From NCBI GenBank assembly GCA_964019135.1, contig OZ025257.1:20983971-21047970 (forward strand): a DNA stretch of 64,000 nucleotides. The letters run 5' to 3'. Position 1 is the stretch's first letter, and each line of letters starts with the position of its first letter. Position numbers and translations under genes: made by a program. This DNA is from Arenicola marina. Its lineage: Eukaryota > Annelida > Polychaeta > Arenicolidae. Shown in pieces: positions 2,105 through 56,100 of the stretch. Below the pieces are notes generated by a model. The model was not told the origin of the DNA and searched no databases. It saw only the letters and a list, made by a program, of their open reading frames with translations.

Positions 2105-2330
2105 ATATTGGATATTGGTCGACGATGGGTGATTAATAAATGATTGGTGGATGAGTTGTGAACGACAAAATGATGGATAGATGACGGATTTATCGTTTTA
2201 TCATTCAGTTATTCGGCCATCATCCGTCAAAAAAGTCAAACAGTAATCCAATTCCGAAAAAGCCAAGACCAATAATTAGAAGTATAACTATAAGCATGAC
2301 AAATGAGATAGGAAAACAACGACAGACAAG
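2105..2330 (+). repeat. Dispersed repeat, copy 1 (matches 10,722-10,920)
   Basis: The stretch starting near TTGGTCGACGATGGGTGAT and running through the GGCCATCATCC motif recurs at 10,722-10,920 in the same orientation with many substitutions. The second copy is followed by the GGTAACCCTATACACCC block that here lies at 2,966 and 3,520. The pieces therefore belong to one larger repeat that is rearranged between the two sites. Confidence 0.75.
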
Positions 2331-2622
2331 AATGTACTAAAGATTAATCAGAATGGGTGCAACATGCAGGATGGTCCGCAGAAATCTAAAACAACTGCCA
2401 CTTCATTGCCAAGCAGACACGGTGAAGCTGCTTAATAAAATGACGATATATCGTAAATTATGGTTTCAACTATTCACATTAAACCATCGTACAGTATCGG
2501 GACCTACAAACAGATGGAGAGATACAAGATAACTCAATCGTGGCCCGTTGGTTCCCATCCTGTCCCAAACTCCTGAGGGGCATCCATCAGGCCAACTGTG
2601 TCGTCTGCCATTTCACGCGAGT

Positions 2623-3053
2623 TAAATTTGATCGACTGCTGCCGTGAGTAGGATGTGTACCGATTTTTACGCCATTTGTTCTGCATCATTCTATAATAAA
2701 TACACTCAGAAACAAGGGCTCCATGATAATGAAGTACTTTTTCCTCCACGATCATTAGTCCCTGTGTAGACTGCGGCCTCTCGTCATGTCATACGCGACA
2801 TGACTAACGAAAGATGGAAACGAGAATCGCATTGGGAGGAGAACAACGTGATCTTGTCCAGAAAGTAGTAAACATCTATGGTCTTATTATTACAGTCCAG
2901 TGATTTGTTGACGTACTCGGCGTGTTTGTTGACATTCGACCTTGGACTGTTTGTCTGTGCCCTCAATGTGGGTAACCCTATACACCCATGTTGACACATA
3001 TTTTATGAAGGGCATTAATATTGGTTCGCAAGACGTGCATTCAAAGACGGACA
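2623..3053 (+). repeat. Tandem duplication, unit 1
   Basis: About 430 bases from GTTAAATTTGATCGAC to TTGGTTCGCAAGACGTGCA are repeated as unit 2 at 3,165-3,604, offset about 545 bases, with roughly 10% differences by eye. Open frames of 70-80 codons on the minus strand occur in both units but are not conserved in length or frame, which argues against coding. Confidence 0.85.
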
Positions 3054-3164
3054 CCACAAATTACGACCGCGGGGGCCCAAGCCTCAGATAGCCTTCTTCC
3101 TCAACATGGGGAAGGCTCGCTTGTAATATTAAAAAAAGATTCCCCGAATATTCTGCCAATGTTA

Positions 3165-3604
3165 CAGTTAAATTTGATCGACCGCTGCCGTGAGTAGGAA
3201 GTGTTCCGATTTTTACGCCATTCATTCTGCATAATTCTATAATAAAAACACCCAGAAACAAGAGCTCCAGAATGAAGTACTTTTTCATCCACGATCATTA
3301 GTCCCTGCTTGGACTGCGGCCTCCTGTCATACGCCATGCGCTAACATGACTAACGAAAAGATGGAAACGAGGATCGCATTGGGGGGAAGAACATCGTCAT
3401 CTTGTCCAGAAAGTAGTAAGCATCTATGGTCCAATTATTACGTAGTGAAGCGGTTTGTTGACGTTCTCGGCGGGATTGTTGACATTTAACCTTGGACTGT
3501 TTGTTTGTGTCCTCCATATGGGTAACCCTATATACCCATTATGACACATATTTAATGGAGGGCATTATTATTGGTTCGCAAGACGTGCATTCAAAGACCG
3601 ACGC
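3165..3604 (+). repeat. Tandem duplication, unit 2
   Basis: This is the second copy of the 2,623-3,053 unit. Its last ~90 bases (GGTAACCCTATATACCC to CAAGACGTGCATTCAAAG) also match 10,924-11,012, so the end of the unit exists in at least three places in the window. Confidence 0.85.
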
Positions 3605-4831
3605 TATTTTCCCATCTGTAATCACTCCGAGACTCTTGTTTGTCGTTGGCACCTTACCAGGTCGAGACGCATACTCAAATTGAAGTAATATACTTCAATT
3701 GAAGTAAAACTTGTATTCTTGCCGCATTTTAAGTAATCAGACAATTTCACCTTAATCTAGGTAACTTGTTGAAATGTTACCTCAATCCCAGTACTTCTGT
3801 CTTATGGGGTGCCCTGACCCCATAGGGTAATTTGTATTATGCAAAATTATGTATGTATTGCGTTTTGGTTGGCTCTTTTTTTTAGATCAACACACTTCCA
3901 TATAACCACAGTGCTAAAATTGAAACTTAACATGGCGGGCGAGCAAGCTTTTTTGCCGAGGCAGGATGTTTAGTAGACGAGTATACGTAACAATTTAGCT
4001 TTGTAAGTGCATAAACTGTTGCGCGAAAGTTATATGGAGGTGCCGAAATGTTTTTGCACTTATTATTATTAGTTTAGACCATATTTAATTGTTTATATGT
4101 TCCGGATTTCTACTTCTATGTGAGGAATTGCCACAATTGCACTTAGCAGGCGTGCCCCATTGCCAGTATTGGCCATTCGCTTTGTTTTCAGATGTTTTTG
4201 TGCAATCTCTTTCATCGCAAAAGATTAATTGTTGATGTAAGGTTGTTACTCCTATAAACTAGCATACAATAAATAGGTTCAAATGACTGAGTGTAACGTA
4301 ATGCTATATGTACAACTCTTAACTTTCTTTCCCTGGCTTACTGTCGTCGTTTGTCCGAAAAAAACAAGATTTGGATATAATCTGGCGTTCGTGTCATGTG
4401 CCCAGAAAGAAACGCTGGAACTTTTGGTGGGGTAGAGAGGATTTTAAAGGAAAATGTGGCACAAGGTATGCTTATGAGTAAATAATCAATCTTCACTTCA
4501 ATGGTCGTGTTTAGTTTTTTGTGTATTATTTACCCATATCGCTTCGAATTAAACATTATCATACCCCTTTCGCAATAAAAAAGATAACATAACTAGCTTG
4601 CGGGTTCAACCTACTACCTTTTTTAAAAAGGAAACAACTTTATAATGAACGTTTCTTGATTAGCTCAAAACTCAACGAAAATTAAAAAAACGGAAACAAA
4701 AATAAACGTAATGTCAATTGACTTCCAAAACCACGACTGCCATCAGAAATGCAAAAAGCCATTACTGGCTTTCATCACCAAAGAAGTTCGCTATCTGTGG
4801 TCTCTGGAATAAAAAAAAACAACAGGGACCA
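3605..4831. other. Intergenic; promoter-like ATGGCGG site and one possible small exon
   Basis: No gene is recognised. At about 3,930 the sequence AACATGGCGGGCGAGC resembles a YY1-type promoter motif with a 13-codon open frame. At about 4,410-4,467 (plus) an open stretch rich in Lys, Arg and Trp codons is bounded by CCCAG before it and AAG/GTATGC after it, so it could be a ~58-base exon. Both are suggestions only; no connected gene structure was found. Confidence 0.25.
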
Positions 4832-6729
4832 CTACTGGCATTTCGAGCAAACAAACTTAGCAGACTCTATGTCGTGTTCCGCGATGCCAAGACATTTGGC
4901 ATGACACCATGTTTCGCACCCAATTCACCGTCCACTTTTCATGTTGTCCCGCAACTTGGTGTATCTTTCTCCACAAAGACAGACGGCTGCCATCTGCTTA
5001 GGCACGACTCGTTTCCTGCGCTTGAGTGCATCAAGGACTGCATTTAGTTTTTCTCTGCTGTTTGGTCGCTGGTTGCGGCGGCTGGCTGTTGGTGGCTGAA
5101 TCTGGCTGGTGGTTTGTGGCTGAGGGTGACTGGTGGTTGGTGGCTGAAGGTGACTGGTGGTTGGTGGTTGCGGGTGACTGGTGGTTGGTGGTTGCGGGTG
5201 ACTGGTGGTTGGTGACTGAGGGTGACTGGTGGTTGGTGGCTGAGGATGACTGGTGGTTGGTGGTTGCGGGTGACTGATGGTTGGTGACTGAGGGTGACTG
5301 GTGGTTGGTGGCTGAGGATGACTGGTGGTTGGTGGCCTAGTCTGGCTGGCGGTTTGTGGCTGAGGGTGACTGGTGATTGGTGGCTGAGGGTGACTGGTGG
5401 TTGGTGGTTGCGGGTGGCTGGTGGTTGGTGGCCGAGTCTGGCTGGCGGTTTGTGGCTGGGGTTGACTGGTGGCTGGTGGTTGCGGGTGGCTGGTGCTTAG
5501 AGCTTCTGTCTCTTCCGCCAGTACCGGGTTCACTTGCGGGGTTTCACCTGTGTAAGTGTTGTCAAAGATTGATCCCCGGGGCTGTCCTGATGTGGTGGCG
5601 AGGATTTCAACCTCTCCGAATTGAGAGTACATGTCTGAGGCAAAATGGAATGGTGCCACTGGTTGACGGTACACAGTCCCCAGGGTTAGACAGAGAGAAA
5701 TCACTTTCAATCAACTGTGGGTCAAGTGTGACAAATTGCTGCTTAGCAACTATGGAACGGACATTGAAAACTGGAATAAAATTCAAATCGGCGCGTGAGC
5801 TTTTTGTGGGAGTGGGTTGTAATACCTCTGCTGGCTGCTCTCAAACAAATGAATGTTCATCTCCTGAGTCTTGTGTTGTGGTTGCTGTTGCCGAATGGGG
5901 TATACCCCTAACCACTACGGGGGTTACCCTGAACGACTGTTTTCCTTCGTGATCTAGTTTTGTCCATATTCTTCTTTACTTCAAAGTTCACACTCTGGTT
6001 CGAAGCTATGAGCTGAAACCAGTCATCTCGGTTTGTGTGTGTGTAACTCTTTCCATTTGCATCTCTGTAAAAAAACAGAGCTTCTCCACCACATGCGACT
6101 GTCAGAGAATGTGCCGCCTTGCAAATTGATGTCAGTCTTGTTTTCCTAGCTTTGGCGCGCTCTACACTGGTGTCCTTGTACTCGACTTTCCTCTTACCGG
6201 TCGCATGTGTCCAATTAGGGTTGCTGTAATAAGAAGAGGGGCATTATTGTTAACTATAGTTCTTTGGCTAAAAAGCTCAACTGCATTGAATTAATGTCAA
6301 ACTCATTGTTCGTGGTAGCTATAGATCTACTGGTCTGGGCTGTATTCATAAACCACACCTGCTACATGGAAATGTACTGGGGGGGGGGGATTTTCCCATC
6401 AAAAACCTTCATTTGGTCCAATGTTAAAGTTATACATGTTCAATGTCGATGTCAATTGACTTCCAGAGACTGACAAATTAAACAAAATAACTGATATTAA
6501 AAAAGATCTTGTGTAGATATTGGTGACATATAGGTTTAGAAACTGTGACACACAATGTTATACTAATTAACCTTAGCATGCTTAGGAAATATGGCTTACG
6601 TATTGAAATCAGCTATTTTGATATAATATTTTTTTATTCAAGCAAGTGTAGCGTAGACTTTTGTAATGTTAATATCTCTTTATATTTATTCAGTGCAAAC
6701 TTACCTTTTGGCGGCTCTTAATTGATCAT
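4832..6729 (-). CDS. Multi-exon gene: MADS/SRF-like segment, Pro/Thr-rich repeat linker, basic patch and PHD-like finger (in-frame TGA)
   Basis: Read on the minus strand, a 25-base micro-exon (6,729-6,705, acceptor TTTTTGCAATGCAG, donor AAAAG/GTAAGT) joins in frame to an exon starting at 6,223 after TTATTACAG. That exon stays open for 104 codons to a TAG at 5,908. A donor CAGG/GTAACC at 5,927 and an acceptor TTTTGCCTCAG (exon from 5,634) remove the TAG and restore the frame. An alternative acceptor TTTTATTCCAG (exon from 5,770) is also in phase but runs into a stop. Residues ~10-62 of the second exon (landmarks KRKVEY, CKAAHSL, EALFFY, GKSY) align without gaps to my recollection of the SRF-type MADS domain, about 16 identities in 53. 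The last exon has an acidic/Thr-rich start, about 19 TTSHPQPP-type repeats, KRRKR (possible NLS) and a PHD-like cysteine cluster. A TGA at 4,925-4,927 sits where Trp is expected; the finger continues in frame to a TAG at 4,832. An upstream start, possibly the ATG at 6,902-6,900, is unproven. It is a gene with a fresh stop or a young pseudogene. Confidence 0.5.
4838..4981 (-). pseudogene. PHD-like zinc finger coding segment interrupted by TGA
   Basis: In the frame of the last exon the ligand pattern is C-x-C, 18 positions, C-x3-C-H-x2-C, 14 positions, C-x2-C, with TWCHAKCLGI and FVCSKC at the core. TWCH and the closing C-x2-C are typical of PHD fingers. The spacing between the third cysteine and the histidine is two or three residues shorter than usual, so one ligand may be lost or the fold is a variant. 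The TGA (4,925-4,927) lies immediately before IGCE, where PHD fingers usually have Trp; one base change from TGG would explain it. PHD fingers usually read histone H3 tails; that role is only inferred. Confidence 0.55.
5085..5500 (-). repeat. 24-bp in-frame coding minisatellite (TTSHPQPP)
   Basis: A 24-base unit (on the plus strand GGTGACTGGTGGTTGGTGGC) is repeated about 17 times inside the last exon of the gene above. The unit is a multiple of 3 and gives an 8-residue repeat TTSHPQPP with variants TASQTRPP and TTSQIQPP, so copy number can change without breaking the frame. The plus strand shows open frames rich in Trp and Gly, which are shadows of the repeat. Confidence 0.8.
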
Positions 6730-6902
6730 CTGCATTGCAAAAATCACTTCATTGGGTTTGCTTCAGTAACAGTGGAACAGGAACATATATTGACAAGCAA
6801 CTTTAACATAACAAGAACATGTAACAGAAAAATTTAACAAACTTGAGTAAATGCAATCACTAGATTATACAAATCTTGCCTCTGGGGACCTCGTTTGCTC
6901 AT

Positions 6903-7439
6903 TGCTGTAGCCTTATAATCTAAAACAAGCGACAGGCAACAAAAGAAGTTAATTTTTAATCTTGTAGATTTTTTTTATTAAATATCAAGCAACCTACTAC
7001 TACATTAGTCAGTAACCCATCAGCCCATATGCAGTTATGTACTGACAATAAAAAGTCTATTCAATCCAATTCAATTCTTTTGGGTAATTGGGTAAATTAA
7101 CAATTAATTGCACTGAAGACCTGTTCCGATATATTACATTATAAGCTTACTCTTTATATATTTTGAGCCAATGCTAACCTCTGGTTGACAAAAATTTGCA
7201 CCACCTCACTGCTTCACTGTTCACAGATCGGTACACGCTCAGGCTGCCTCCGCTTGCGTCTGTGCGTAGCGCTACCTAGCGAATGGAAGCTTGAGATTGG
7301 TAAATGTTGGGCGCGCCCTCTAGTGGTATCCAATGTTAATCCAGTTGAAGTAACTTTGTCAAAAATACTAGGATTGAAGTATAAATTATGGAAGTAACCT
7401 CAATTAAAGGAAAACACGAAATTATTTCAATTTGAGTAT
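6903..7439. other. Intergenic, possible 5' region of the minus-strand gene
   Basis: AT-rich DNA with no recognisable element. It lies directly upstream of the candidate ATG at 6,902 of the minus-strand gene and may hold its promoter. No TATA box or initiator could be assigned with confidence. Confidence 0.3.
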
Positions 7440-8220
7440 GCGTCTCGACCTGCTTACTGCGTCTCGTATAATGACATCCGCCGTGCGAGATTTTCGTGTT
7501 ATCTCGCCGCCCCCATGGACACCCTCCTATGCACGCGGCTGACGTAAATACACGACAGCGCGCGACATCTGGCGGCACCCCGCCCCCCCTCCCACGCCAC
7601 CGGCTGTCGTCTGTTCTGTCTGTCCTCCAGGGTAATACATCTTTCGCCCCGCAACTCGTTGGTGTCTTCGGTCCATTCACTGATTGTTGTTTTTTGATGT
7701 GTGACCAGTGACTGATTCTTCCCCAGCCACCCAGCCGGTCCCGCAATAACCTAGGCCCTCTTTAGTGCAGCCTCGATTTGACCTTTTGGACGAGGTCGCC
7801 TGTAAATTAATAGTCCAAGTCTACGCAAAGAAGGGTAATTCTGCGGGACGGAACACGAGAAAAAGTCCTTGCCTAACACGATTTACTGCCCTGCTTGATT
7901 GGGGAAGTAATAATGTCACCCTTTAGGCCCGTTTAGAACTATAGTACGATGGCAGGTTATTATAAACTATAGATGATTTATTTAAGCTATTCTGTTGCTT
8001 TATATTGGATGAATACCATAAAGCTTTGCGCTGGGTGTTATTTCTTTTGGTTGACTACAGACACAATAGGTGGTGAGCGCTTGATGGACACACCGTGTCT
8101 GGTATTAATTGACCCTCTATGACACGTGGTTTCGTGGGATGCCTTATCGACGTATTCTCCAGGGTGACTCTGGTGATCTGCTGGAAACAAGTTCGAGAAT
8201 CGCACTGATTATGCGATATG
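7440..8220 (+). repeat. Dispersed duplicated block E, copy 1
   Basis: From GCGTCTCGTATAATGACATC through TGATTCTTCCCCAG to the GTCTGGTATTAATTGACCCTC region this block recurs in the same order at 11,030-12,330. The second copy carries an extra ~500 bases (11,282-11,815). Part of the middle (AAAGGGTAATACATCTTTC) is also found at 9,018-9,040. Open frames on either strand are not conserved between copies. Confidence 0.8.
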
Positions 8221-8385
8221 TAATTGTGGGGATCGGCCTTTGACAAAGATATCATTGTTGAATTTTATTCCCTTTGAGCACTTACAATGAAACATACATA
8301 CAAACAACAGCCGGCTCTGACCACTGGAAGTGGGTAGCTGCCTCTGCACCTCCAATTCCCCCACACGTCCCCCAATTCCCAGCCT

Positions 8386-9000
8386 ATACCGGCCTGACGT
8401 TAGCCTTGTTATATCGATACACATTTCTCCGTCTTTCCTGTCTTCTTGTTCTCCTATTCGTGTAATCTGGCAATAAGGATTGTCTAAAGCTCGCAGAAGA
8501 AAAATCTTCGTTTTATGTCAGCTCCTTTGTTACGCGTTGTTAAAGGACAGTTTTGTTGTAGGCCCTCCTTTACACGGGCGAATGAGACGTCATACAATAT
8601 CCTGTTCAAAATCAGTCCTCAGCGGGTGTCAGTATTTATTGTGTGACTCGCTTCAAGTCTCCCTTGGGCTGGGTTGCACTGGAAACAGATTTGATGAACA
8701 ACGCCGGTGCCACGTCGACAAGCAATTATATTTTTTTACCATCCTGACATGTCAGCACTTGTATCGCGGCCACTAATTATTAACAATGTATGCAAAAAGA
8801 AAACCAAGACATGTATGTGATCCTGTTGTAAAGCTACTGTGTACCAAGATGCAGAATGTGAATACCAAAAAATGACATTTCTTCACTGCTGGAAACATCA
8901 TGTCATCAACCTAGATATTACGTTGTTCAGCTTGCAATTCTACCCATGGCGACATGTTCCACACACAACAACAAAAGTGACGTTTTGTCTCTGTCCTCCA
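8386..9000 (+). repeat. ~708-bp tandem duplication, unit 1
   Basis: The unit begins at TATACCGGCCTGACGTTAGC and is repeated from 9,094 with about 10-15% differences and small indels. It contains a GTAAT...CAATAAGG...GCTCGCAGAAG stretch that looks like a polyadenylation region. No protein is conserved between units. Confidence 0.85.
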
Positions 9001-9093
9001 GTTCCTCGCCCCATAAAGGGTAATACATCTTTCATCCCGCAGCTCTTTGGTGGCCATTAACGTGACAATTATCCCCGTCTCTCAGCCTCAGCC

Positions 9094-9710
9094 TATACAG
9101 GCCTGACGTTAGCTGTGTTCAATAAACATTTATCCATCTTTCCTGTTTGATGTTTTGCTCTTCGTGTAATCTTAGTCAATAAAGCTTGTCTCAAGCTCGC
9201 AGAAGAAAAACCTGCATTTCATGTGAGCTCGTGTGTTACGCGTTGTTAAAGGACAGTTCGGTTGTAGGCCCCCCTTTACGCGGACGAATGAGACGTGATA
9301 CAATATCCTGTTAAAAATCAGTCCTCAGCGGCTGTCAGTACTTACTGTGTGACTCGCTGAGTGTCCCTTGGGCAGATTTGAACTGGAAACAGATTTGATG
9401 GACAACGCTGGTGCCACGTAGACAAACAATTATATTTCTTACCGCTACACAGCATGACATTTCAGCACTTCTATCGCGTCCACTAATTATTAACAATGTT
9501 TACAAAAAGAAACCCATTCATGTATGTGATAAAGCTACTGTGTACCTAGATGCAAGCTAAAAAATCTTTTTTTCAATCTGCCGTTTCTTTGCAGCTGGAA
9601 GCATCATTTCATCAACCTAGATATTACGCTGTTAGGCTTGTATTTTTTACTCATGGCGACATGTTCCACGTACAAAAAAGTAAGTGACATTTTATCTCTT
9701 CCCTTCTTTC
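9094..9710 (+). repeat. ~708-bp tandem duplication, unit 2
   Basis: This is the second unit of the duplication starting at 8,386. The landmark GGCCTGACGTTAGC opens both, and TGTTAAAGGACAGTT and CACTAATTATTAACAATGT recur in the same order. Comparing the two units shows no preference for silent changes in any frame. Confidence 0.85.
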
Positions 9711-10721: not shown

Positions 10722-11012
10722 ATTGGTCGACGATGGGTGATGAATGGATGATGGGTAAATGATTTATGAACGAGAAAAAGGTGGATCGATGAGGGATTTA
10801 ATCATTATAATCCTTCCGTTATACGGCCGTCATCCAACCATCCTTCGTCAAAAAAAGTTAAAGCCAAGGCCCATAACTAGACCTACAATTATAAGCCTGA
10901 CAAATTGAGATCATGAAAAACAACATGTGGGTAACCCTATACACCCATTATGACGCATATTTCATGGAGGGCATTACTATTGGTTCGCAAGACGTGCATC
11001 CAAGGAGGGACG
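10722..11012 (+). repeat. Dispersed repeat, copy 2
   Basis: Bases 10,722-10,920 match 2,105-2,330, and 10,924-11,012 match 2,964-3,050 and 3,517-3,604. Here the two parts are adjacent, whereas at the left end of the window they are 0.6 kb apart, so one arrangement is derived by insertion or deletion. Confidence 0.75.
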
Positions 11013-11029
11013 CTGTAATCACTCCGAGA

Positions 11030-12330
11030 CTCTTGTTTGTCGTATGCATCTTACCGCGTCTCGTATAATGACATCCGCCGGGCGAGATTCTTGTGTTATC
11101 TCGCCGCCCCCATAGACGCCCACCTATGCAGGTAGATACACGACAGCGCGCGACCTCTAGCGCCCCCTCCCCCACCCCCCCCCCCCCCCCCGCCGGCGGT
11201 CGTTTGTTCTCTCCGTCAGTCCTCCAGATCCTTGCCCCATAAAGGGTAATACATCTTTCGCCCCGCAGCGCTTTGGTGGCATTTTATGACAGTGGTGAGG
11301 CGACAGCATGGGTGCCTCACTGCTTGCTGACTGACCGACCCATGCTGATGCTAATTAAAGCGAGGTCGTGAATAGCGAAATAAGCTGAGCTTTGGTTTGT
11401 TTTGGATCTGTTTTGGCGGGTGCTTTCTCCACTGACAAGGCGTTGTGTTGTATTGTGTTGCGTGGAAAGACCTGTATGGTATATGCATGGTGACAATGGA
11501 ATGGTGGACGCGCGAGGCTAGGTCTCATAATATAATACCGTTTGTCTTAAATTGGGCGTCGGCTATTTGTGTGTATATAAAACTCAAATACGCGCATCAA
11601 CAACACATGTGTTCGGCTCGGATGGTATGAGTCCCAAATCGGCGGCTGACGGTCGTTGCACTCTGTACTAGATCATGACGGAGCCAAGGAAAAGTGCCAC
11701 GCCATGTTAATGATCACCATGGAGTGGCGACCTGTCTCCCAGACCCTCCGGTGCAGAGCTCCCACACCCGTTGTCTCCATGTTCTTTCTTCCCATTGATC
11801 ATCTTGCTGCGTTAGCGTCTTCGGTTCATTTACTGATTAAAATAGGCCAAGATGCAAACGTGTATTTTTTGGTGTTTGACCCGAGACTGATTCTTCCCCA
11901 GACACCCAACAGGTCTCTCATTAACCTAGACCCTCTTCAATGCAGCCTCGATTTGACCTTTGGACGACGTCGCCTGCAAAGTAGCAGTCCAAGTGTACGT
12001 AAAGAAAGATAAATCTCCGTCTGGAATGATGTACTGCCCTGCTTGATTGGGGAAGAAATAATGTCACCCTTTAGGCCCACTTAGCCCTATGGCAAGATGG
12101 CAGGTCGTTATAAACTATGGATGAGTTATTTCAGCTATTCTGTTACTTTATATTGGATGAATACCATAAAACTGTGCGCTTGTGTTAATCCTGTTGGGTG
12201 ACTGCAGACACAATATGTGGTAAGCGGCTGACGGGCACACCATGTCTGGTATTAATTGACCCTCTGTGACACGTGAGATGGTGGGGTGTCTCGTCGACGT
12301 ATTCTCCAGGCTGCAAACAAGGGCGACACT
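11030..12330 (+). repeat. Dispersed duplicated block E, copy 2
   Basis: Matches 7,440-8,220 in the same orientation. An extra segment, about 11,282-11,815, interrupts it; I see no clear terminal repeats or target-site duplication around that segment, so it may be an insertion here or a deletion in copy 1. A long C run sits at about 11,170-11,190. Confidence 0.75.
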
Positions 12331-25855: not shown

Positions 25856-27806
25856 AAAACGGAAGCAGCGGAAACGTGTTTCTGAAAGAGCGAGAAGAAA
25901 TAATATCAGATCCATAATAAGTAAGTGACATATTTAATAACTATTTCATAGACGTTGCCAAAAAACAATATGACATACCAGATGATCAACCAATAGACGA
26001 AACCCTTCTTTATCACATAGACCATAAATCCGTTACGGCTGTAAAGGAAGGTAACCAAGGCATAACGGAAACCTTTAACTTTCGGGAAGTAAGTAGCCAC
26101 AAGATATACAATGCACTTAAAGGCATTGACGTGTCGAATGCTAGTGCCTACGACAAGATACCTCCGAAGCTTATCAAGCTGGGAGCTGCCATCCTGTGTG
26201 AGCCATTAAGGTCTGTGTTAAATATGACGATTAATTGTAATACGTTTCCAAAAGAACTAAAATACGCTGAAGTCACACCGATTTTCAAGATAAGGACAAC
26301 TTAAATAAGGAAAACTGCAGGCCGGAAAGTGTTTTCCCCTGTATTTCCAAGATATATGAAAAAATATTGTGTGACCAGCTTACGTCCTTTATGGAACCCA
26401 GGTTATCACAAACTATCTGGGTTTAGAAAGGGACACAGCTGTCAAAGCCTACTGATGCGTTTTGTTGAAGACTCAAAAAATGCATTAGATGATAATCAAG
26501 TTATGGGAGCTATACTAATGGATCTCTCCAAAGCATTCGATGGTCTTCCACATAGGTTATTAATTACCAAGATGAACGTTTATGGCATAAGTAAACAATC
26601 ATATACGCTAGTTGCAAGCTATCTTACGAACCGCGAATAGAGGGTAAAACTAGGACATAATCGGAGCAAGTGGCTTTATCTCAAGAAAGGAGCACCACAG
26701 GGATGTGTTTTGGGTCCATATATGTATAATGTATTTACGAATGATCTGCTAGTATCCACCGCACGGGAAACATAAGTATAATTATGCTGATGATAATACT
26801 GTGGCGGCTCAAGGTAAGCAGTTTAACAACGTTAAGGTAACTCTCGAAAAGGCATTATCGGAGATAACATGGTGGTTCACTGATAATTACATGAAAGCGA
26901 AGCCAAGTAAGTACCAGGCAATCGTGTTTAAAAAAGAGAAACGAATTAAGTCAGCACAGATCGTTTTCGATTTCTGGAACAGAACTGGCAGCAGAACAGG
27001 AAGTAACATTACTAGGTATTCAACTGGACGCTAGGTTAACTTTCGGCAACCATATATCAAGTTTATGCAAAAAGGCTGGAAAAAGTATCAATGTTTTAGC
27101 TATAGTTTCTAAATCAATGGATGATGATAGTAAACTTACGTTATTTCATTCTTTTATCCTTTCGCATTTTAATTATTGTCCCGTTGTATGGCATTTGTGT
27201 GATATGAAAAATATGCGTAAGATTGAAAAGATACAGGAGCGGGCATTGAGGTATGTGTTTAATGACTTTAGATCAGAATACGCAGTTGAGGAAGAGATTG
27301 GGTAGACCATTGCGACACGTTGAACGATTTCGCAGCATATCATTAGAAGTTTTCAAGAGTATCAACAAGATTGGCCCCAGTTATCTTAATGACATGTATA
27401 ACGTGAAGGAAAGCAATTACATTTAAAAAAATGGGCCAAATAGATGTATGCCACGCGCTAAGACAACAGCTTATGGCCATAATTCATTGACGTATCAACG
27501 TAGCAAGCTATGGAACATGCTCAACAAGGAAACGAAGTTAGCCAAATCTGTCAAGCAATTTAAAACAACCCTATCAACGTCGGATGTGTCCTTGTGTCAC
27601 TGTAATTCGTGCACATTGTGCAACATAGCTAATGGGTAAGGTTTTATGAGATGCAAAGGTTGTTATATTTTTATTGTCATATGTATTTATATCTCATCCT
27701 CTTATGTAATATTATCATTGTCGGTCAATAGCACGTGTGCTAATGTTTATTGTTGACTTTCACATACCGACGTTAAATAAAACTGTATCTTATCTTATGT
27801 TATCTT
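25856..27806 (+). pseudogene. 5'-truncated, decayed non-LTR retrotransposon (reverse transcriptase), CR1/Jockey-like
   Basis: Successive plus-strand frames give recognisable reverse transcriptase blocks in order: an SNASAYDKIPPKL block (~26,140), an LSGFRKGHS block (~26,415), MDLSKAFD with the first catalytic Asp (~26,518), GAPQGCVLGP (~26,689), and the catalytic YADD box (26,783-26,794). A C-terminal GHNSLTYQRSKLWN block (~27,478) follows, ending in a C-x-C-x4-C-x2-C cluster. The frame changes at about 26,290, between 26,330 and 26,405, at 26,772 and near 27,005, and stops lie at 26,304, 26,640, 27,034 and 27,305, so it is dead. The endonuclease domain is missing, the usual result of 5' truncation. 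The 3' end carries AAATAAA and a short TATCT repeat tail at 27,774-27,806 rather than poly(A), as in CR1-like groups. The clade is uncertain. Confidence 0.9.
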
Positions 27807-33159: not shown

Positions 33160-34590
33160 TCGTCTCGCTCTCTCTGTCTCTTTCTCTCTCTGCCCTCCAC
33201 CTGTCTCTTTGCCCTCTACTTGTCTCTCTGCCCTCTACCTGTCTCTCTGCCCTCTACTTGTCTCTATGCCCTCTATCTGTCTTTCTGACCTCTACTTGTC
33301 TCTCTGCCCTCTACCTGTCTCTCTGCCCTCTACTTATCTTTCTGCCCTGTACTTGTCTCTCTGCCCTCTACCTGTCCCTGTCCTCTGTCTATCTGTCCTC
33401 TATCTGTCTTTCTGATTTCTACTTGTCTCTCTGCCCTCTACCTGTCTCTCTGCCCTCTACTTATCTTTCTGCCCTCTACTTGTCTCTGCTTTCTACCTGT
33501 CTTTGTCCTCTGTCTATCTGTCCTCTACCGGTCTCTCTACCATCTACTTGTCCCTCTGCTCTCTACCTGTCTCTGTCCTCTGTCTATCTGCCCTCTATCT
33601 GTCTTGCTGACCTCTACTTGTCTCTCTGACCTCTACTTATCTTTCTGCCCTCTATCTGTCTTTCTGACCTCTTCTTGTCTCTCTGCTCTCTACCTGTCTT
33701 TGTCTTCTATCTATCTGTCCTCTACCTGTCTTTCTACCCTCTACTTGTCTCTCTGCTCTCTACCTGTCTCTGTCCTCTGTCTATCTGCCCTCTATCTGTC
33801 TTTCTGACCTGTACTTGTCTCTCTGCTCTCTACCTGTCTTTGTCCTCTATCTATCTGTCTTCTACCTGTCTTTCTACCCTCTACTTGTCTCTCTGCTCTC
33901 TACCTGTCTCTGTCCTTTGTCTATCTGCCCTCTGTCTTTCTGACCTCTACTTGTCTCTGCCCTCTACCTGTCTCTCTGCCCTTTACTTATCTGTCTGCCC
34001 TCTACTTGTCTCCTTATCCTCTACCTGTCTCTCTGATCTCTACCTGTCTCTGTCCTCTGTCTATCTGCCCTCTGTCTATCTGTCCTCTACTTGTCTCTCT
34101 ACCCTCTACTAGTCTCTCTGCCCTCTACCTGTCTCTCAGCCCTATAATTATCTCTCTGTCCTCTACCGGTCTCTCTGCTCTCTACCTGTCTCTGTCCTCT
34201 GTCTCTCTGTGCTCTACCTGTCTCTGTCCTATGTATCTCTGCCTTTTACCTGTCTGTCCTCTGTCTCTCTGTCCTCTTACCTTTCCGCTCTCTATCTGTT
34301 ATTTTGCCCTCTCCCTGTCTATCTGCTCTCTGTCTGTCTGTCTGTCTCTCTCTCTCTGCTCATTAACTGTCTCTCTGTCCTCTATCTGTCTCTCTGCTCT
34401 CTACCTGTCTCTGCCCTCTGTCTCTCTGTCCTATACCTGTCTCTCTGCCCTCTATCTGTCTCTCTGCGCTCTATGTGTCTCCGTCCTCTACCTGTCTCTG
34501 CCCTCTACCTGTCTATCTGCTCCCTGTTTCTCTCTTTCTGTCTCTCTCTCTCTGCTCATTAACTCTCTCCCTGTCATCTCCATGACTTTC
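33160..34590. repeat. 19-bp pyrimidine-rich minisatellite, first block
   Basis: The unit is GCCCTCTACCTGTCTCTCT with variants (GACCTCTACTTGT, GTCCTCTATCTGT). Because 19 is not a multiple of 3, all plus frames show the same Leu/Ser/Cys/Pro-rich phrases, so the 117-215-codon frames are not genes. The strand is almost purine-free for 1.4 kb. Confidence 0.9.
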
Positions 34591-34971
34591 AATTCGTTTC
34601 TCGCTTTGCCCTATACCTTTTCATCTCATCTCTACATATCTCGGACCCTCTGATTATCCCTATAAGTTGTCTCCCTTTTTTTTCTCTCTCGCTCTCTCTC
34701 CGCTTTTTGAATGTCCCTCTGTTATCTACTTGTGTGTGTCTCTGCCCTATACCTGTCTCTAAATAAAATTTGCCTTCTAGCTGTCTCTCTTTCCTCTACC
34801 TGTCCTTCAAATTATTTTTTCTTTTTCCCTCAACTCTTTAACTGTCCGTCTGTCCTCAACTTCTCAGTCTGCCCTCGATCTGTCATTCGGCCCTCTGTTT
34901 CTTTCTCTGCCCCTCTGCCTTTGGTGTCTTTATCTTGCTCTCTCTTCTTTAATTTTATCCTTATCATCTTG
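34591..34971. repeat. Degenerate edge of the 19-bp minisatellite
   Basis: Pyrimidine-rich DNA with decayed units; absent between the two blocks' equivalents at about 36,280, where GACTTTCAATTCG joins directly to the SINE-containing block. Confidence 0.6.
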
Positions 34972-35400
34972 ATTTAGTCAAAAGTAGCGAACATAGATAA
35001 ACCTACCTCAGGGCTACTGTGTCTGAACTGTTTGTGCCGCAAAAAGATCCCATGCTTCTCTGTAACGGGTTACTCTATACCTTGATCGTCCCCATTGTGG
35101 CTAGGCAGCCCCATAGGTCAGTGGGTTAGAGTGCTCGCGCTCACATTGAGTGCTCTGGTCACCCGGAAGCCTAACGGCACGTGGATCGAGGGTTCGAGCC
35201 CCGCTGAGGTCATATCTGTGTGGTCGCAGGATAAAGATCCCATGTCATTCTTCGCAAAGAGTAGGGAGTTACTCCCGGGGACATGGTTCCACCCTCTCTT
35301 CCTTCTCCCATTTACGCGATATGATCAGAATTGGCTAAAGCGTCCTGAATATACAACCAACCAACCGATTGTGGCGACAGGACCTGCAGAGGCTATTATC
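34972..35400 (+). repeat. SINE-containing duplicated block, copy 1
   Basis: About 430 bases from ATTTAGTCAAAAGTAGCGAAC to GCGACAGGACCTGCAG are nearly identical (around 97-98% by eye) to 36,293-36,715. The copies are 1.32 kb apart, separated by more of the same 19-bp minisatellite, so this is a recent tandem duplication of a unit of ~1.3 kb made of minisatellite plus block. Confidence 0.9.
35108..35368 (+). mobile_element. tRNA-derived SINE S1, copy 1
   Basis: The head begins GCCCCATAGGTCAGTGGGTTAGAG (A box with one change from TAGCTCAGTGG) and has a perfect B box GGTTCGAGCCC at 35,191. A tRNA-unrelated body (GTGTGGTCGCAGGATAAAGATCCC region) follows and the tail is an (AACC)n run, ACAACCAACCAACC. 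The A-to-B distance is longer than in a standard tRNA, so the promoter region has an insertion. It contains no coding sequence. Confidence 0.85.
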
Positions 35401-36280
35401 TGTTCTCTACCTGTCTTTCTACCCTCCACTTGTCTCTCTGCTATCTACCTGTATCTGTCCTTTGTCTATCTGCCCTCTATCTGTCTTTCTGACCTCTACT
35501 TCTCTCTCTGCCCTCTACTCGTCTCTCTGCCCTCTACTTATCTTTCTGCCCTCTAGTTGTCTCTCTGTCCTCTACCTGTCCCTGTCCTCTGTCTCTCTAT
35601 CCTCTACCTGTCTCTCTGCTGTCTACCTGTCTCTGTCCTCTGGCTATCTGTCCTCTGTCTATCTGTCCTCTACTTGTCTCTCTACCCTCTACTAGTCTCT
35701 CTGCCCTCTACCTGTCTCTGTGCCCCATGATTATCTCTCTGTCCTCTACCTGTCTCTCTGCTCTCTACCTGTCTCTGTCCTCTGTCTCTCTGTGCTCTAC
35801 CTGTCTCTGACCTATGTATCTCTGCCTTTTACCTGTCTCTGTCCTATGTCTCTCTGCCTTCTACCTGTCTGTCCTCTGTCTCTCTGTCTCTCTGTCCTCT
35901 TACCTTTTTGCTCTCTGCCTGTCTTTTTAGCACTCTCCCTGTCTATCTGCTCTCTGTCTGTCTGTCTCTCTGTCTCTCTCTCTCTGCTCATTAACTGTCT
36001 CTCTGTCCTCTATCTGTCTCTCTGCTCTCTACCTGTCTCTGCCCTCTGTCTCTCTGCTCTCTGCCTGTCTCTGTCCTCTGTCTATCTGTCCTATACCTGT
36101 CTCTCTGTCCTCTATCTGTCTCTCTGCCTCTATGTGTCTCCGTCCTCTACCTGTCTCTGCCCTCTACCTGTCTCTCTGCCTTCTACCTGTCTCTTTGCCC
36201 TCTCCCTGTCTATCTGCTCTCTGTTTCTCTCTTTCTGTCTCTCTCTATCTGCTCATTAACTCGCTCCCGGTCATATCCAT
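35401..36280. repeat. 19-bp pyrimidine-rich minisatellite, second block
   Basis: Same unit as at 33,160-34,590. The order of variants (for example GCTCATTAACTGTCTCTCTG, then TATCTGTCTCTCTGC) parallels the end of the first block, as expected from segmental duplication. Confidence 0.9.
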
Positions 36281-40333: not shown

Positions 40334-40440
40334 CCTTATTCACTCTCACCTTACCTCTCAATCATTTTGGATTTCTGTCACGTTGTCACTTACTCGCAAT
40401 GTCACTGTCACTCACTGTCACTCTGCCACTCACTGTCACT
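39655..40440 (+). repeat. Inverted repeat block A (partner A' at 51,995-52,990)
   Basis: CCAGTTTCACGCATTGGCGAG, ATCGCAGCCATTCATCTT, GAGGTTTTGGTCATGTATGG, GGCCTGTGTAA, GCTACTCACGTT and ATTT(T/C)TGTCAC...CACTTACTCG(C/T)AATGTCA all recur in the same order on the opposite strand of 51,995-52,990. Similarity is patchy (about 75-90% by eye) with indels. It includes a CACT/CCCTCA-rich simple-sequence half from 40,040 onward, in which a 289-codon plus frame starting at 39,948 is a repeat artefact. Confidence 0.85.
40250..40345. repeat. (CCCTCA)n hexanucleotide array
   Basis: About 15 units of CCCTCA with a few CCCTTA/CCCTTAC variants. It sits within block A and shares its simple-sequence origin with the following satellite. 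Confidence 0.9.
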
Positions 40441-40499
40441 CTGCCACTCACTGTCACTCTGCCACTCACTGTCACTCTGCCACACTTACAATCGCTGTC

Positions 40500-43144
40500 A
40501 TTGTCACTTACTGTCACTCTTATTCTCACTGTCAATCTTACTCTCACTGTCACACTTACTCTCACTGTCACTCTTACTCTCACTGTCACTCTTACTCTCA
40601 CTGTCACTCTTACTCTCACTGTCACTCTTACTCTCACTGTCACTCTTACTCTCGCTGTCACTCTTACTCTCACTGTCACTCTTACTCTCACTGTCACTCT
40701 TACTCTCACTGTCACTCTTACTCTCACTCGCACTCTTACTCTCACTCGCACTCTTACTCTCACTCGCACTCTTACTCTCACAGGCACCCTTACTCTCACT
40801 GTCACTCTTACTCTTAGCGTCACTCTTACTCTCACTGTCACTCTTACTCTCACTGGCACCCTTACTCTCTCTGTCACTCTTACTCTCGCTGTCACTCTTT
40901 CTCTCACTCTCACTCTTACTCTCACTGTCACTCTTACTCTCACTGTTACTCTTACTCTCACTCTCACTCTTACTCTCACTGTCACTCCCACTCTCACTGC
41001 CACTCTTACTCTCACTGTCACTCTTACTCTCTTACTGTCACTCTTACTCTCACTGTCACTCTTACTCTCACTGGCACTCTTACTCTCACTGTCACTCTTA
41101 CTCTCACTGCCACTCTTACTCTCACTGTCACTCTTACTCTCAATGTCATTCTTACTCTCACTGTCACTCTTACTCTCACTGTCACTCTTACTCTCACTGT
41201 CACTCTTACTCTCACTGTCACTTTTACTCTCTTACTGTCACTCTTACTCTCACTGTCACTCTTACTCTTACTGTCACTGTTACTCTCACTGTCACTCTTA
41301 CTCTCACTGTCACGCTTACTCTCACTGTCAATCTTACTCTCACTGTCACTCTTACTCTCACTGTCACTCTTACTCTCACTGTCACACTTACTCTCACTGT
41401 CACTCTTACTATCACTGTCACTCTTACTCTCACTGTCATTCTTGCTCTCACTGTCACTCTTACTCTCACTGCTACTCTTACTCTCACTGTCACTCTTACT
41501 CTCACTGTCACTCTTACTCTCACTGTCACTCTTAGTCTCACTGTCACTCTTACTCTCACTGTCACACTTACTCTCACTGCCACTCTTACTCTCACTGTCA
41601 CTCTTACTCTCACTGTCACTCTTACTCTCACTGTCACTCTTACTCTCACTGTCACACTTACTCTCACTGTCACTCTTACTTTCACTGTCACTCTTATTCT
41701 CACTGTCACTCTTACTCTCACTGTCACACTTACTCTCACTGTCACTCTTACTCTCACTGTCACTCTTACTATCACTGTCATTCTTACTCTCATTTTCACT
41801 CTTACTCTCACTGTCACTCTTACTCTCACTGCCACTCCTACTCTCACTGTCACTCTTACTCTCACTCTTACTCTCACTGTCACCCTTACTCTCACTGTCA
41901 CTCTTACTCTCACTGTCACTCTTACTCTCACTCTCACTCTTACTCTCACTGTCACTCTTACTCTCACTGTCACTCTTGCTCTCACTGTCATTTTTACTCT
42001 CACTGTCACTCTTACTCTCACTGTCACACTTACTCTCACTGTCACACTTACTCTCACTGCCACTCCTACTCTCACTGTCACTCTTACTCTCACTGTCACT
42101 CTTACTCTCACTCTCACTCTTACTCTCACTGTCACTCTTACTCTCACTGTCACTCTTACTCTCACTGTCACTCTTATTCTCACTGTCACACTTACTCTCA
42201 CTGTCACTCTTACTCTCACTGTCACTCTTACTCTTACTGTCACTCTTACTCTCACTGTCACTCTTACTCTCACTCTCACTCTTACTCTCACTGTCACTCT
42301 TACTCTCACTGTCACACTTACTCTCACTGTCACTCTTACTCTCACTCTCACTCTTACTCTCACTGTCACTCTTACTCTCACTGTCACACTTACTCTCACT
42401 GTCACTCTTACTCTCACTCTCACTCTTACTCTCACTGTCACTCTTACTCTCACTGTCACACTTACTCTCACTGTCACTCTTACTCTCACTGTCACTCTTA
42501 CTCTCACTGTCACTCTTACTCTCACTGTCACTCTTACTCTCACTGTCACTCTTACTCTCACTGTCACTCTTACTCCCACTGTCACTCTTACTCTCACTGT
42601 CACTCTTACTCTCACTGCCACTCTTACTCTCACTGTCACTCATACTCTCACTGTCACACTTACTCTCACTGCCACTCTTACTCTCACTGTCACTCTTACT
42701 CCCACTCTCACTCTTACTCTCACTGTCACTCTTACTCTCACTGTCACACTTACTCTCACTGTCACTCTTACTCTCACTCTCACTCTTACTCTCACTGTCA
42801 CACTTACTCTCACTGTCACTCTTACTCTCACTGTCACTCTTACTCTCACTGTCACACTTACTCTCACTGTCACTCTTACTCTCACTGTCACACATACTCT
42901 CACTGTCACTCTTACTCTCACTGTCACTCTTACTCTCACTGCCACTCTTACTCTCACTGTCACTCTTACTCTCACTGTCACTTTTACTCTCACTGTCACT
43001 CTTACTCTCACTGTCACTCTTACTCTCACTGTCACTCTTACTCTCACTGTCACTCTTACTCTCACTGTCACTCTTACTCTCACTGTCACGCTTACTCTCA
43101 CTGTCACACTTACTCTCACTGTCACTCTTACTCTCACTGTCACT
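40500..43144. repeat. 18-bp satellite array, about 147 copies (2.6 kb)
   Basis: The unit is CTTACTCTCACTGTCACT. Because 18 is a multiple of 3 and no unit contains a stop, several frames on both strands stay open for very long stretches: TLTVTL, LSLLLS and HSYSHC types on plus, and SDSESK and VRVRVT types on minus, up to 954 codons. Variants recur with higher-order periods, most clearly a 72-bp (four-unit) block repeated about three times at 42,255-42,470. Two CTCTTACTGTCA junctions at about 41,030 and 41,232 shift the frame. No signal outside the repeat supports translation. Confidence 0.95.
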
Positions 43145-43949
43145 CACGAAGGACCTTTAACAAACTCCCTTCCATTTTATTTCAAGCATCGCCCAGCAGC
43201 TGCTGTTTCGCTCTTTGATTTCATGGCCTAGCGACCCATTTCTCCTCCAAACCCCCTACCCCTTACCCCAGCCCCGTACTCGCAGCCCCACCCCCCTCGC
43301 CCCCTTCCTCAACCCCGCCCGAAGCTCCAGCCAGTCAGGGCGTAGTCCTTTCATCTCGACCCTTATTTGACCAAAACAGTCTGGATTACCCTCGCCAGCA
43401 TTCTGATCAGCACAATGAGACGGGAAGCCTGATTACATCTTTGTCGGTGGTATAGTCAAAGGGAGAGGAGACTGCCGCCATTGTGCTGTGCGTTTGTATG
43501 TATCTTCACCCATTGGTCCCTACTACATATCAGGTCCTCGAGGTGGGCAGGACCGTTAGCGTTGAGCTAAGCCCACAAGGGATGAATGACAAGTGACCTA
43601 CTTTTGCCGACGGCATTGTTATGTATTGTATGACGCACACCCATATATATATATATATTCTTCCTGTTGTGTTCGTTACGGTATTTAGACTGTCTGGCCG
43701 CCTGCCTGGCAGGGGTCCGGTACGACATAGCGGCTCTCCGTCGTACTGACCTCCAACAACAATGCGCATGTGAAGTTAGCACGGTAGCGTCAGCGTCTCT
43801 CTGGAACTTGTCGGGGAGAAGGAAGCAAAGAAAGTGGGAACACTTAAGAATTGCAAGTGACTTCTGTTTTGAAATGGCAGTGATTAACGTAAGTTTGAGG
43901 AGGGATAGTTGACCACCGTAAGGTAGGGGAGGGTCAGATAGGATACCTG
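43145..43949. other. Sequence between satellite and block B
   Basis: No gene recognised. C-rich at 43,250-43,320 with a (TA)n run near 43,642-43,658. The right-arm counterpart, if any, lies beyond the window end. Confidence 0.4.
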
Positions 43950-54227: not shown

Positions 54228-56100
54228 TGTCTGGCGCGGCGGGAGACGAGAGCGACCCGAGATGAGGGGGATGAGGGGGTGGATGAGGGGATGCGTTTCC
54301 AGCGTGAGTCTCCATGCAAGAAGAGCAAAGATACCATCCATGCCGTCACGGGACGGGTTCAAGACCCCAATTGCCTCATAGGTCGCTCGCGAAATTAATG
54401 GACCAACTAAAGGAAAAGTTCACATGGGATATGGACTCCTCACAGGATATGGATATATCCGTGAAGCAAAAAAAAAACTTTCGTTTATGACGCACGTCTG
54501 ATTCAGGTGCCACTGCATCATGCATCGGGACGCCATTGTTAATTGCGGGGATCAGTTGTTTGTTGCTGCTTGCCGAAAAAAGGCAAATGATGTCTTTCTA
54601 AACTGTAAAAAGACACATGACTGATACAGACGCCTCCTTTGTTGTTACCACTCCATTCCGTTAATTTGCAAACCCGTCTCATGTTCTTACCGTTTCGTTT
54701 TATTTAGTTATATTCCGAAGTGCTGGGTGGAGTGTTGTGTATAGATATCTATGGATTATGTGGATGTTTGTAGGCATCTGAAGATGTTCGTAAGTATGTT
54801 TATAGACGTTAGTAAATGTTTACAAATATGTTTATGGACGTTAGTAGATGTTTACAAATATTTGTATAAACCTTAGTAGATGCCTGCAGATGAATGTCAA
54901 GGTGCGTCTAGATGTCTAAATGCCTAGATCTCTAACGTTAGATGTCTAGATGTCCAGATATCTGGATACTTATATGTCTAAATGTCTTTATGTCCAAATG
55001 TCCAAATTTCTAGATGTGTAGATGCATGTAGATGTCAGTATGTGTCGATGTTGATGTCTGTTGATGTGTGTAGATGTATTTTGATGTCTGTTGATTCCTG
55101 GAGATGTTTGTAGTTGTATTTTGATGTCTGTTGATTTCTGTAGATGTCTAGATGTCTGTTAATGTCTGTTAATGTATGTTGATGTTTGTTGATGTCTGTA
55201 GATGTTTGTAGATGTATTTTGAAATCTGTTGATTTCTGTAGATGTCTAGATGTTTGTTTATGTCTGTTGATATCTGTTGAAGTCTGTAGATGTCGGTAGA
55301 TGTATGTGGATGTCTGTAGATGTCTGTTTATGTCTGAAGATGTATGTGGATGTCAGTAGATGTCTGTAGATGTCGGTAGATGCCTGTAGATATGTCTGTA
55401 GATGTCTGAAGATGTCTGAAGATGTATGTGGATGTCAGTAGATGTCTGTAGATGTCTGTAGATGCCTGTAGATATGTTATGTCAAGTCTTTAATAATTAA
55501 ATTAGCTACCCTAACAAGGTAACGAAAAATTACTCAAACGCTAACACTGGATTTACATCTTACATTACAAGACATTTACGAGTTTATCCATCAGCGCCGC
55601 GCTAAATATTCCTTGCCACTCTCCCAGCAGAGGGCGCTCGGACTGTTTGTTTTACTAGACTGGTGCCCGACCTGCAACTGACTTCCCGTTTTGCACTGAC
55701 TGGTTTGCGTCCACTGTCGCTCCCCGCCTAACAAAATGGCTGGTCTGGCCAAAAATGATTCGAAAAGTTTTTTTTTCGATTTTTTTCAGTCTAGATGTCT
55801 GTAGATGTCTGTATATGTATGTTCATGTTTGCTGTAGACGTATGTAGACGCCTGTAGATTTCTAGATTTCTTCTGATGTCTGTTGATGTCTGTAGATGCT
55901 TGTAGATGTCTGTTGATGTCTGTAGATTTCTAGATGCCTGTAGATTTCTAGATTTCTGTTGATGTCTGTTGATGTCTGTAGATGCCTGTAGATATCTGTT
56001 GATGTCTGTAGATTTCTAGATGTCTGTAGATGTCTGTAGATGTTTGCCGATGTCTACAGATGTCTGTTTATGTCTGTATATATCTAGATGTCTTTTGATT
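54228..56100 (+). repeat. Block D, copy 2
   Basis: Direct duplicate of 12,412-14,740 (landmarks listed there). It lacks the 13.44-14.17 kb portion of copy 1 and has extra GATGTCTGTA repeats at 55,020-55,480. About 55,620-55,740 (AGAGGGCGCTCGGACTG to CCACTGTCGC) is absent from copy 1. Confidence 0.85.

Follow-up and report, generated by a model that had tools for sequence, protein, structure and literature searches.

A probable decayed accessory gene, with a MADS-like segment and a PHD finger, inside a non-autonomous DNA transposon of Arenicola marina

Cut-and-paste DNA transposons can encode a second protein beside the transposase, and in the PIF/Harbinger group this partner is of Myb/SANT type. 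The Myb-like protein of Harbinger3_DR is stated, with reference to other work, to be needed for its transposase to enter the nucleus (PMC3158080), and the Nuwa families encode a transposase together with a Myb/SANT protein (PMC12730594). Harbinger and its relatives make target-site duplications (TSDs) of 0, 2 or 3 bp (PMC12730594), while 5-bp duplications mark hAT5 (PMC12730594, PMC9004415). Subterminal repeats occur in hAT elements and are reported, in a partly speculative text, to be important for the hAT-derived Kat1 nuclease (PMC4763223). Two further kinds of element bear on the present case: animal Pack-TIR elements, intron-bearing gene captures within terminal inverted repeats (TIRs) of which 208 of 370 documented examples lie in hAT elements (PMC8277862), and Rehavkus, which makes 9-bp duplications and holds both a PHD finger, inside its transposase, and a minisatellite, before its 3' TIR (PMC6446971). 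Among the literature matches listed, no title or abstract opening reports MADS or PHD parts in a transposon, and those listed for hAT5 add no further transposon paper; PMC10027918, on transposon-derived transcription factors, does not mention SRF, MADS or PHD, and PMC9004415 does not mention SRF or MADS. Here we describe a gene-like sequence in the polychaete Arenicola marina, in a 64,000-nt stretch of contig OZ025257.1 (hereafter the window, whose coordinates we use throughout), which joins a segment resembling the SRF-type MADS domain to a PHD finger through a proline-rich repeat. We read it, with a probability of about 78%, as an accessory gene, now decayed, of a cut-and-paste DNA transposon with two genes, represented in the window by an internally deleted, non-autonomous copy.

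The gene-like stretch sits inside an element bounded by TIRs and a TSD and inserted into a host repeat (Table 1). An inverted-repeat search of the window found terminal arms of 32 nt that are 97% complementary, and the first 21 nt of the TIR match nothing in the window except the two TIRs themselves when up to three mismatches are allowed (0 expected by chance). Outside the arms, the host flanks at 3515-3658 and 7453-7624 align to adjacent parts of a single uninserted paralogue at 10924-11217, with identities of 83% and 81%. The TIRs, the TSD and the empty site are those expected of a cut-and-paste TIR transposon. None of this enclosure figured in the preliminary description of the locus, which did not contain the TIRs around the gene. 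The surrounding DNA also holds older duplicated host repeats at 81-88% identity (2620-3602, 8380-9702, and 7690-8163 with 11865-12310), relatives of which supply the empty site.

Table 1. Coordinates of the element, its gene and associated features within the window.
Feature	Position	Strand	Basis or remark
DNA transposon copy, internally deleted, non-autonomous; 3,795 bp	3658..7452	n/a	TIRs, TSD, empty-site alignment, further genome copies with differing 5-bp TSDs
TSD CTTAC, left copy	3653..3657		flank repeat and empty-site alignment
Left TIR, starts CAGGTCGAGACGC	3658..3689	+	97% complementary to 7421-7452
Subterminal repeats ATACTCAAATTGAAGTAA and ATACTTCAATTGAAGTAA; the second contains a 16-nt palindrome at 3691-3706	3671..3707		repeat-family search
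Short remnant, left edge of the ~3.2-kb part present in L010; deletion junction 4397/4398	4381..4397		junction same in window, L012, L014, L015, L016
Remains of the accessory gene, with MADS-like segment, middle region, proline-rich repeat and PHD finger; putative 5' start	4832..6748	-	
Degenerate PHD finger, in-frame stop 4925-4927	4835..4981	-	PF00628, E 1.4e-4, 22.3 bits
24-bp tandem repeat (8 residues), TTSHPQPP-type linker, 17 copies	5088..5495	-	
Decayed coding sequence, earlier taken for intron 2	5635..5927	-	continuous reading frame in L010; L011-L013 likewise bar local lesions; broken in window
SRF/MADS-like segment, KRKVEY...YTHTNR	6028..6195	-	sequence, structure-model and shuffle comparisons
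Probable intron 1, donor AAG/GTAAGT, acceptor after pyrimidine tract	6224..6704	-	GT and AG kept in 8 of 8 aligned copies
Right-end subterminal repeats, two looser copies (78%) of the left-end motif	7336..7382		repeat-family search
Right TIR	7421..7452	-	pairs with left arm
TSD CTTAC, right copy	7453..7457		flank repeat and empty-site alignment
Empty site, uninserted paralogue of the host repeat flanking the element	10924..11217	+	matches both flanks

The element is repeated in the genome. A DNA search of the source assembly (867 Mb, 762 contigs; 40 of 214 candidates scored, counts being lower bounds) found the gene-bearing part in at least eight places, window included, at 92-100% identity. 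We compared these gene-bearing copies (the window and L010-L016) with three short relatives (L017-L019), each of 881 bp and consisting of nothing but both element ends, and with one stretch holding a similar tandem repeat (L020). The left 0.5-0.6 kb recurs in at least 17 genome places at 70-75%. Perfect 5-bp TSDs flank seven of the 11 copies whose ends were compared, the window and L010-L019 (CTTAC, TGTAA, GTAAA, ATTAA, CTAAA, TCCAG and ATAAA), including two of the three short relatives; that of L019 is imperfect, and L012, L013 and L016 have one or both ends lost or rearranged. All seven duplications have A at position 4 and five have T at position 2.

Comparison of the eight gene-bearing copies also revises the structure of the gene. 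The open segments, GT...AG ends, 24-bp repeat, KRRKR motif and PHD-like tail of the preliminary description are all present on the minus strand where it had placed them, and the first of its two in-phase introns is plausible. The donor of this intron agrees with the consensus at nine of nine positions, as is the case for only two of the 7,852 GT sites in the window, and a good pyrimidine tract precedes the acceptor. The proposed first exon does not stand as drawn: translation from the ATG at 6902 ends after 22 codons, and the reading frame that continues into exon 2 opens only at 6748. We rejected the second intron: in L010 one uninterrupted open reading frame (ORF) links the end of the MADS-like exon to the repeat across the stretch in question, and L011-L013 read the same way bar local lesions. 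The donor proposed there is weak (six of nine consensus positions) and sits where the window copy is frameshifted. Compared with the other copies, the window copy has a 1-nt insertion just before the stretch once taken for an intron, and the stretch itself is interrupted by a stop and shortened by an 8-nt deletion. In all, the window copy carries two frameshifts, one stop in the middle part and one stop in the PHD finger, and not one of the eight copies stays open over its full length in the reading frame with which the MADS-like segment begins. Since five of the eight copies carry eight T's within that segment, we also considered an alternative intron ending at this poly-T/ACAG; it seems less likely to us, since the best-scoring exon-2 donor upstream of it, at 6197 (seven of nine positions), is by our own reading out of phase with the frame downstream.

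Differences among the eight copies comprise 6 silent and 32 replacing changes over 187 codons, and the outcome is unchanged by the four replacing changes that fall in a misaligned indel of L010. These counts give no sign of purifying selection on the protein between copies, as is expected of copies decaying after insertion. The MADS-like segment and the PHD finger occur together in seven of the eight copies, the PHD part of L011 having disappeared with a larger gap; both ends are thus parts of a single gene, as had been proposed. The middle part has no match in the PDB, and no homologue was found in a large protein collection. Exon 2 has no match among viral contigs, and its one 21-residue match among prokaryote contigs was taken as chance; searches of NCBIfam, and of Rfam at gathering scores, gave no match.

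The PHD end is the firmer of the two. Against the Pfam model PF00628, with a cut-off of 24 bits, the sister copy L012 scores 26.4, whereas the piece in the window, taken alone, falls short. The same three residues, a zinc ligand among them, are missing from the window copy and L010 but present in L012-L016. By eye, the full C4HC3 set of eight zinc ligands is present in four of the seven copies that hold the finger (L012-L015); it is incomplete in the window, in L010 and in L016, which has lost the first ligand. The closest PDB relative by sequence is BPTF (E 1.7e-4), and tryptophans of the finger align with the BPTF Y and W, whereas BPTF-type fingers differ from this one in that it is transposon-borne and, in the window, broken. 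By sequence criteria, the PHD identity of the sister copies is established. The 24-bp repeat of the linker shows no silent-site bias (18 of 41 changes silent versus 16.1 expected, a value reached by 29% of 300 shuffles). Elsewhere in the genome, the large tandem arrays of L020 (G000 C18) can be read as proline-rich sequence (PPATSHQ) and resemble the linker repeat at about 74% in their DNA.

At the other end, the ungapped alignment to SRF in the preliminary description (about 16 of 53 residues identical) was reproduced at 17 of 56. Its score of 68 was not reached by 10,000 shuffles, which reached at most 56 (z 10), and is the best among the 516 ORFs of the window, the next scoring 34. SRF is also the best match among 177,635 distinct PDB sequences (E 0.052), and SRF or MCM1 chains occupy nine of the ten top Foldseek matches, although Foldseek uses sequence as well as structure. 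The best structure model, itself poor, has the predicted order helix-strand-strand-helix found in MADS factors. Several results weigh against a MADS identity. The segment misses every curated or library-wide threshold, including that of the proposed Pfam test, where PF00319 gave 11 bits against a cut-off of 26 (E 0.29). A two-sequence profile fails for it, and its structural matches are weak, the favoured family not being at the top in one comparison. A run of T's within the segment numbers seven in the window, L010 and L012 and eight in the other five copies, which puts those five out of frame inside the segment. At the SRF positions R143, K154 and K163, which we take to be DNA contacts, the segment has T, S and T. 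It also differs from the SRF/MCM1/MEF2 MADS-box proteins in having a PHD finger attached. On these grounds it is possible, although we lean the other way, that chance or convergence explains the likeness to SRF, and that the protein is a PHD protein whose N-terminal part is of some other kind than a MADS domain; this question is independent of the alternatives weighed below. The place of SRF above all other PDB sequences, the shuffle result and the Foldseek matches argue on the other side, and we regard the MADS likeness as weak yet not trivial, and as suggestive.

The long copies of the element carry a second ORF. L010 measures 7,038 bp, has TIRs and the TSD TGTAA, and contains an extra 3,193 bp between element positions 723 and 741. 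A single deletion junction is common to the window, L012, L014, L015 and L016, and three of these five copies lie in different 5-bp duplications. Since the last four retain the first 29 nt of the extra part, which is the pattern expected from deletion, the long form is most likely ancestral, with a single deletion derivative that subsequently spread. L011 keeps 30 nt of the extra part, followed by different sequence with a 356-codon ORF (2145-3215, minus strand) nested in that element copy, putatively of Harbinger-transposase type. Within its extra part, L010 has a 722-codon ORF convergent to the MADS-PHD gene. The rearranged copy L013 matches this large ORF over residues 136-621 at 96% and residues 1-148 at 89%, plus 23 further residues. 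The large ORF has no Pfam or PDB match and none among viral contigs or phages. Its 721-aa product, which may be incomplete, shows no hAT or BED domain at E values up to 1, and six ORFs scanned from L010 and L012 have no Pfam match to a Harbinger transposase or Myb/SANT domain. Inspection by eye suggests motifs resembling an Asp/Asp/Glu triad, namely FDNNQ (from 290), YCDGSP (from 549) and GHVEMN (from 611), and on this likeness we infer the large ORF to be a candidate transposase.

This second ORF bears on two other accounts of the element. On a Pack-TIR account, part of a host gene, together with its introns, would have been picked up by a non-autonomous transposon, and the gene would be cargo with no role in transposition. 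Such captures are documented in animals, and the window copy resembles them in being a TIR element with a kept intron and no transposase (26 ORFs of at least 36 codons beside the gene gave zero Pfam matches up to E 0.1). The same gene recurs, however, in long copies that bear the large second ORF, and looks like the element's own; moreover, all eight places that match the gene-bearing part are element copies, and the DNA search, which scored 40 of 214 candidates and would miss a diverged parent, found no parental gene outside the element. We therefore consider capture unlikely. It is very unlikely, in our judgment, that the large ORF is instead a separate element nested in this one, with the transposase of the accessory gene lying elsewhere. 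Such nesting would suit the fact that, of the eight gene-bearing copies, L010 and L013 alone were seen to have it, as well as its lack of a transposase match, but inspection of the extra part showed it to lack inverted ends of its own, and the 29 nt retained in short copies are what a deletion would leave. Finally, the original proposal of a two-intron host gene, whether functional or domesticated, is scarcely credible despite the strong splice sites of intron 1, since the gene is multicopy, enclosed by TIRs and, in the window, interrupted in its middle part and PHD finger by the lesions described above. The preliminary description was thus partly supported: its option of a decayed transposon protein is borne out by the multicopy element and the broken gene in the window, while its two-intron model was half wrong, and nothing found here shows a working chromosomal host gene.

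The ends of this unclassified element, CAGG...CCTG, fit hAT, and its 5-bp duplications are those of hAT5; on the other hand, neither a hAT nor a BED domain was found in the large ORF, and we do not file the element there. The 5-bp duplications also set it apart from PIF/Harbinger elements, as does the nature of the partner protein, MADS-like with a PHD finger instead of Myb/SANT. It shares with Rehavkus the combination of a PHD finger and a minisatellite within one element, but differs from it in TSD length and in the placement of both parts.

Short repeats lie just inside both ends of the element. One of them contains a perfect 16-nt palindrome, TACTTCAATTGAAGTA, of which the remaining end repeats retain half only. 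Counted on either strand, the motif TTGAAGTA has six occurrences in the element, of which one, at 5977, is inside the gene and the other five are close to the ends, and none in the rest of the window; it was picked after the repeat family had been seen, and its shuffle figure is no fair test. No CArG or MEF2 box was found in the element. A 17-nt exact direct repeat (4711-4727 and 6449-6465) includes the palindrome GTCAATTGAC, which is unique to these two sites in the window. A CTCF-core-like consensus has two matches in the window, at 7313-7326 (minus strand), inside the transposon near its right end, and at 55624 (plus strand). Farther along the window lie what we read as a broken non-LTR retrotransposon at 25921-27302 (plus strand), whose ORF at 26305-26637 matches RVT_1 (E 4.5e-7), and long tandem arrays at 40389-43145 and 33185-36222 (an 18-bp unit in 153 copies, and 19-bp units).

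If the gene is the accessory gene of a two-gene transposon, its mode of action may be sketched by analogy. The large ORF of the long copies would supply the transposase, and the accessory protein would have formed dimers by way of its MADS-like segment and attached to the subterminal repeats, including the palindrome, while its PHD finger would have read a mark on a histone tail. So bound, the protein may have joined the transposase and the transposon ends in permissive chromatin, or may have prevented silencing of the element, and deleted copies such as that in the window would have been mobilised in trans by the long ones. The DNA-binding and histone-reading roles are drawn from analogy with transposons that encode a second DNA-binding protein; should they hold, the element would parallel PIF/Harbinger in having a second transposon-encoded DNA-binding protein that serves the transposase. 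A bolder version seems doubtful to us, namely that the element represents an unrecognised lineage of animal transposons, perhaps a superfamily, with its own dimeric fusion of an SRF-type MADS domain and a PHD finger, able to hold palindromic subterminal sites and a histone mark at the same time, and with a transposase outside the described families.

The locus illustrates how a frameshifted transposon gene may mimic a new multi-exon gene, since one of the introns proposed here is decayed coding sequence. If our reading holds, mobile DNA in an animal brought together a histone reader and a DNA-binding segment of MADS-like type. This would offer a concrete case of a cut-and-paste element that locates permissive chromatin or escapes silencing, and such elements would be a possible source of MADS-PHD genes through domestication.
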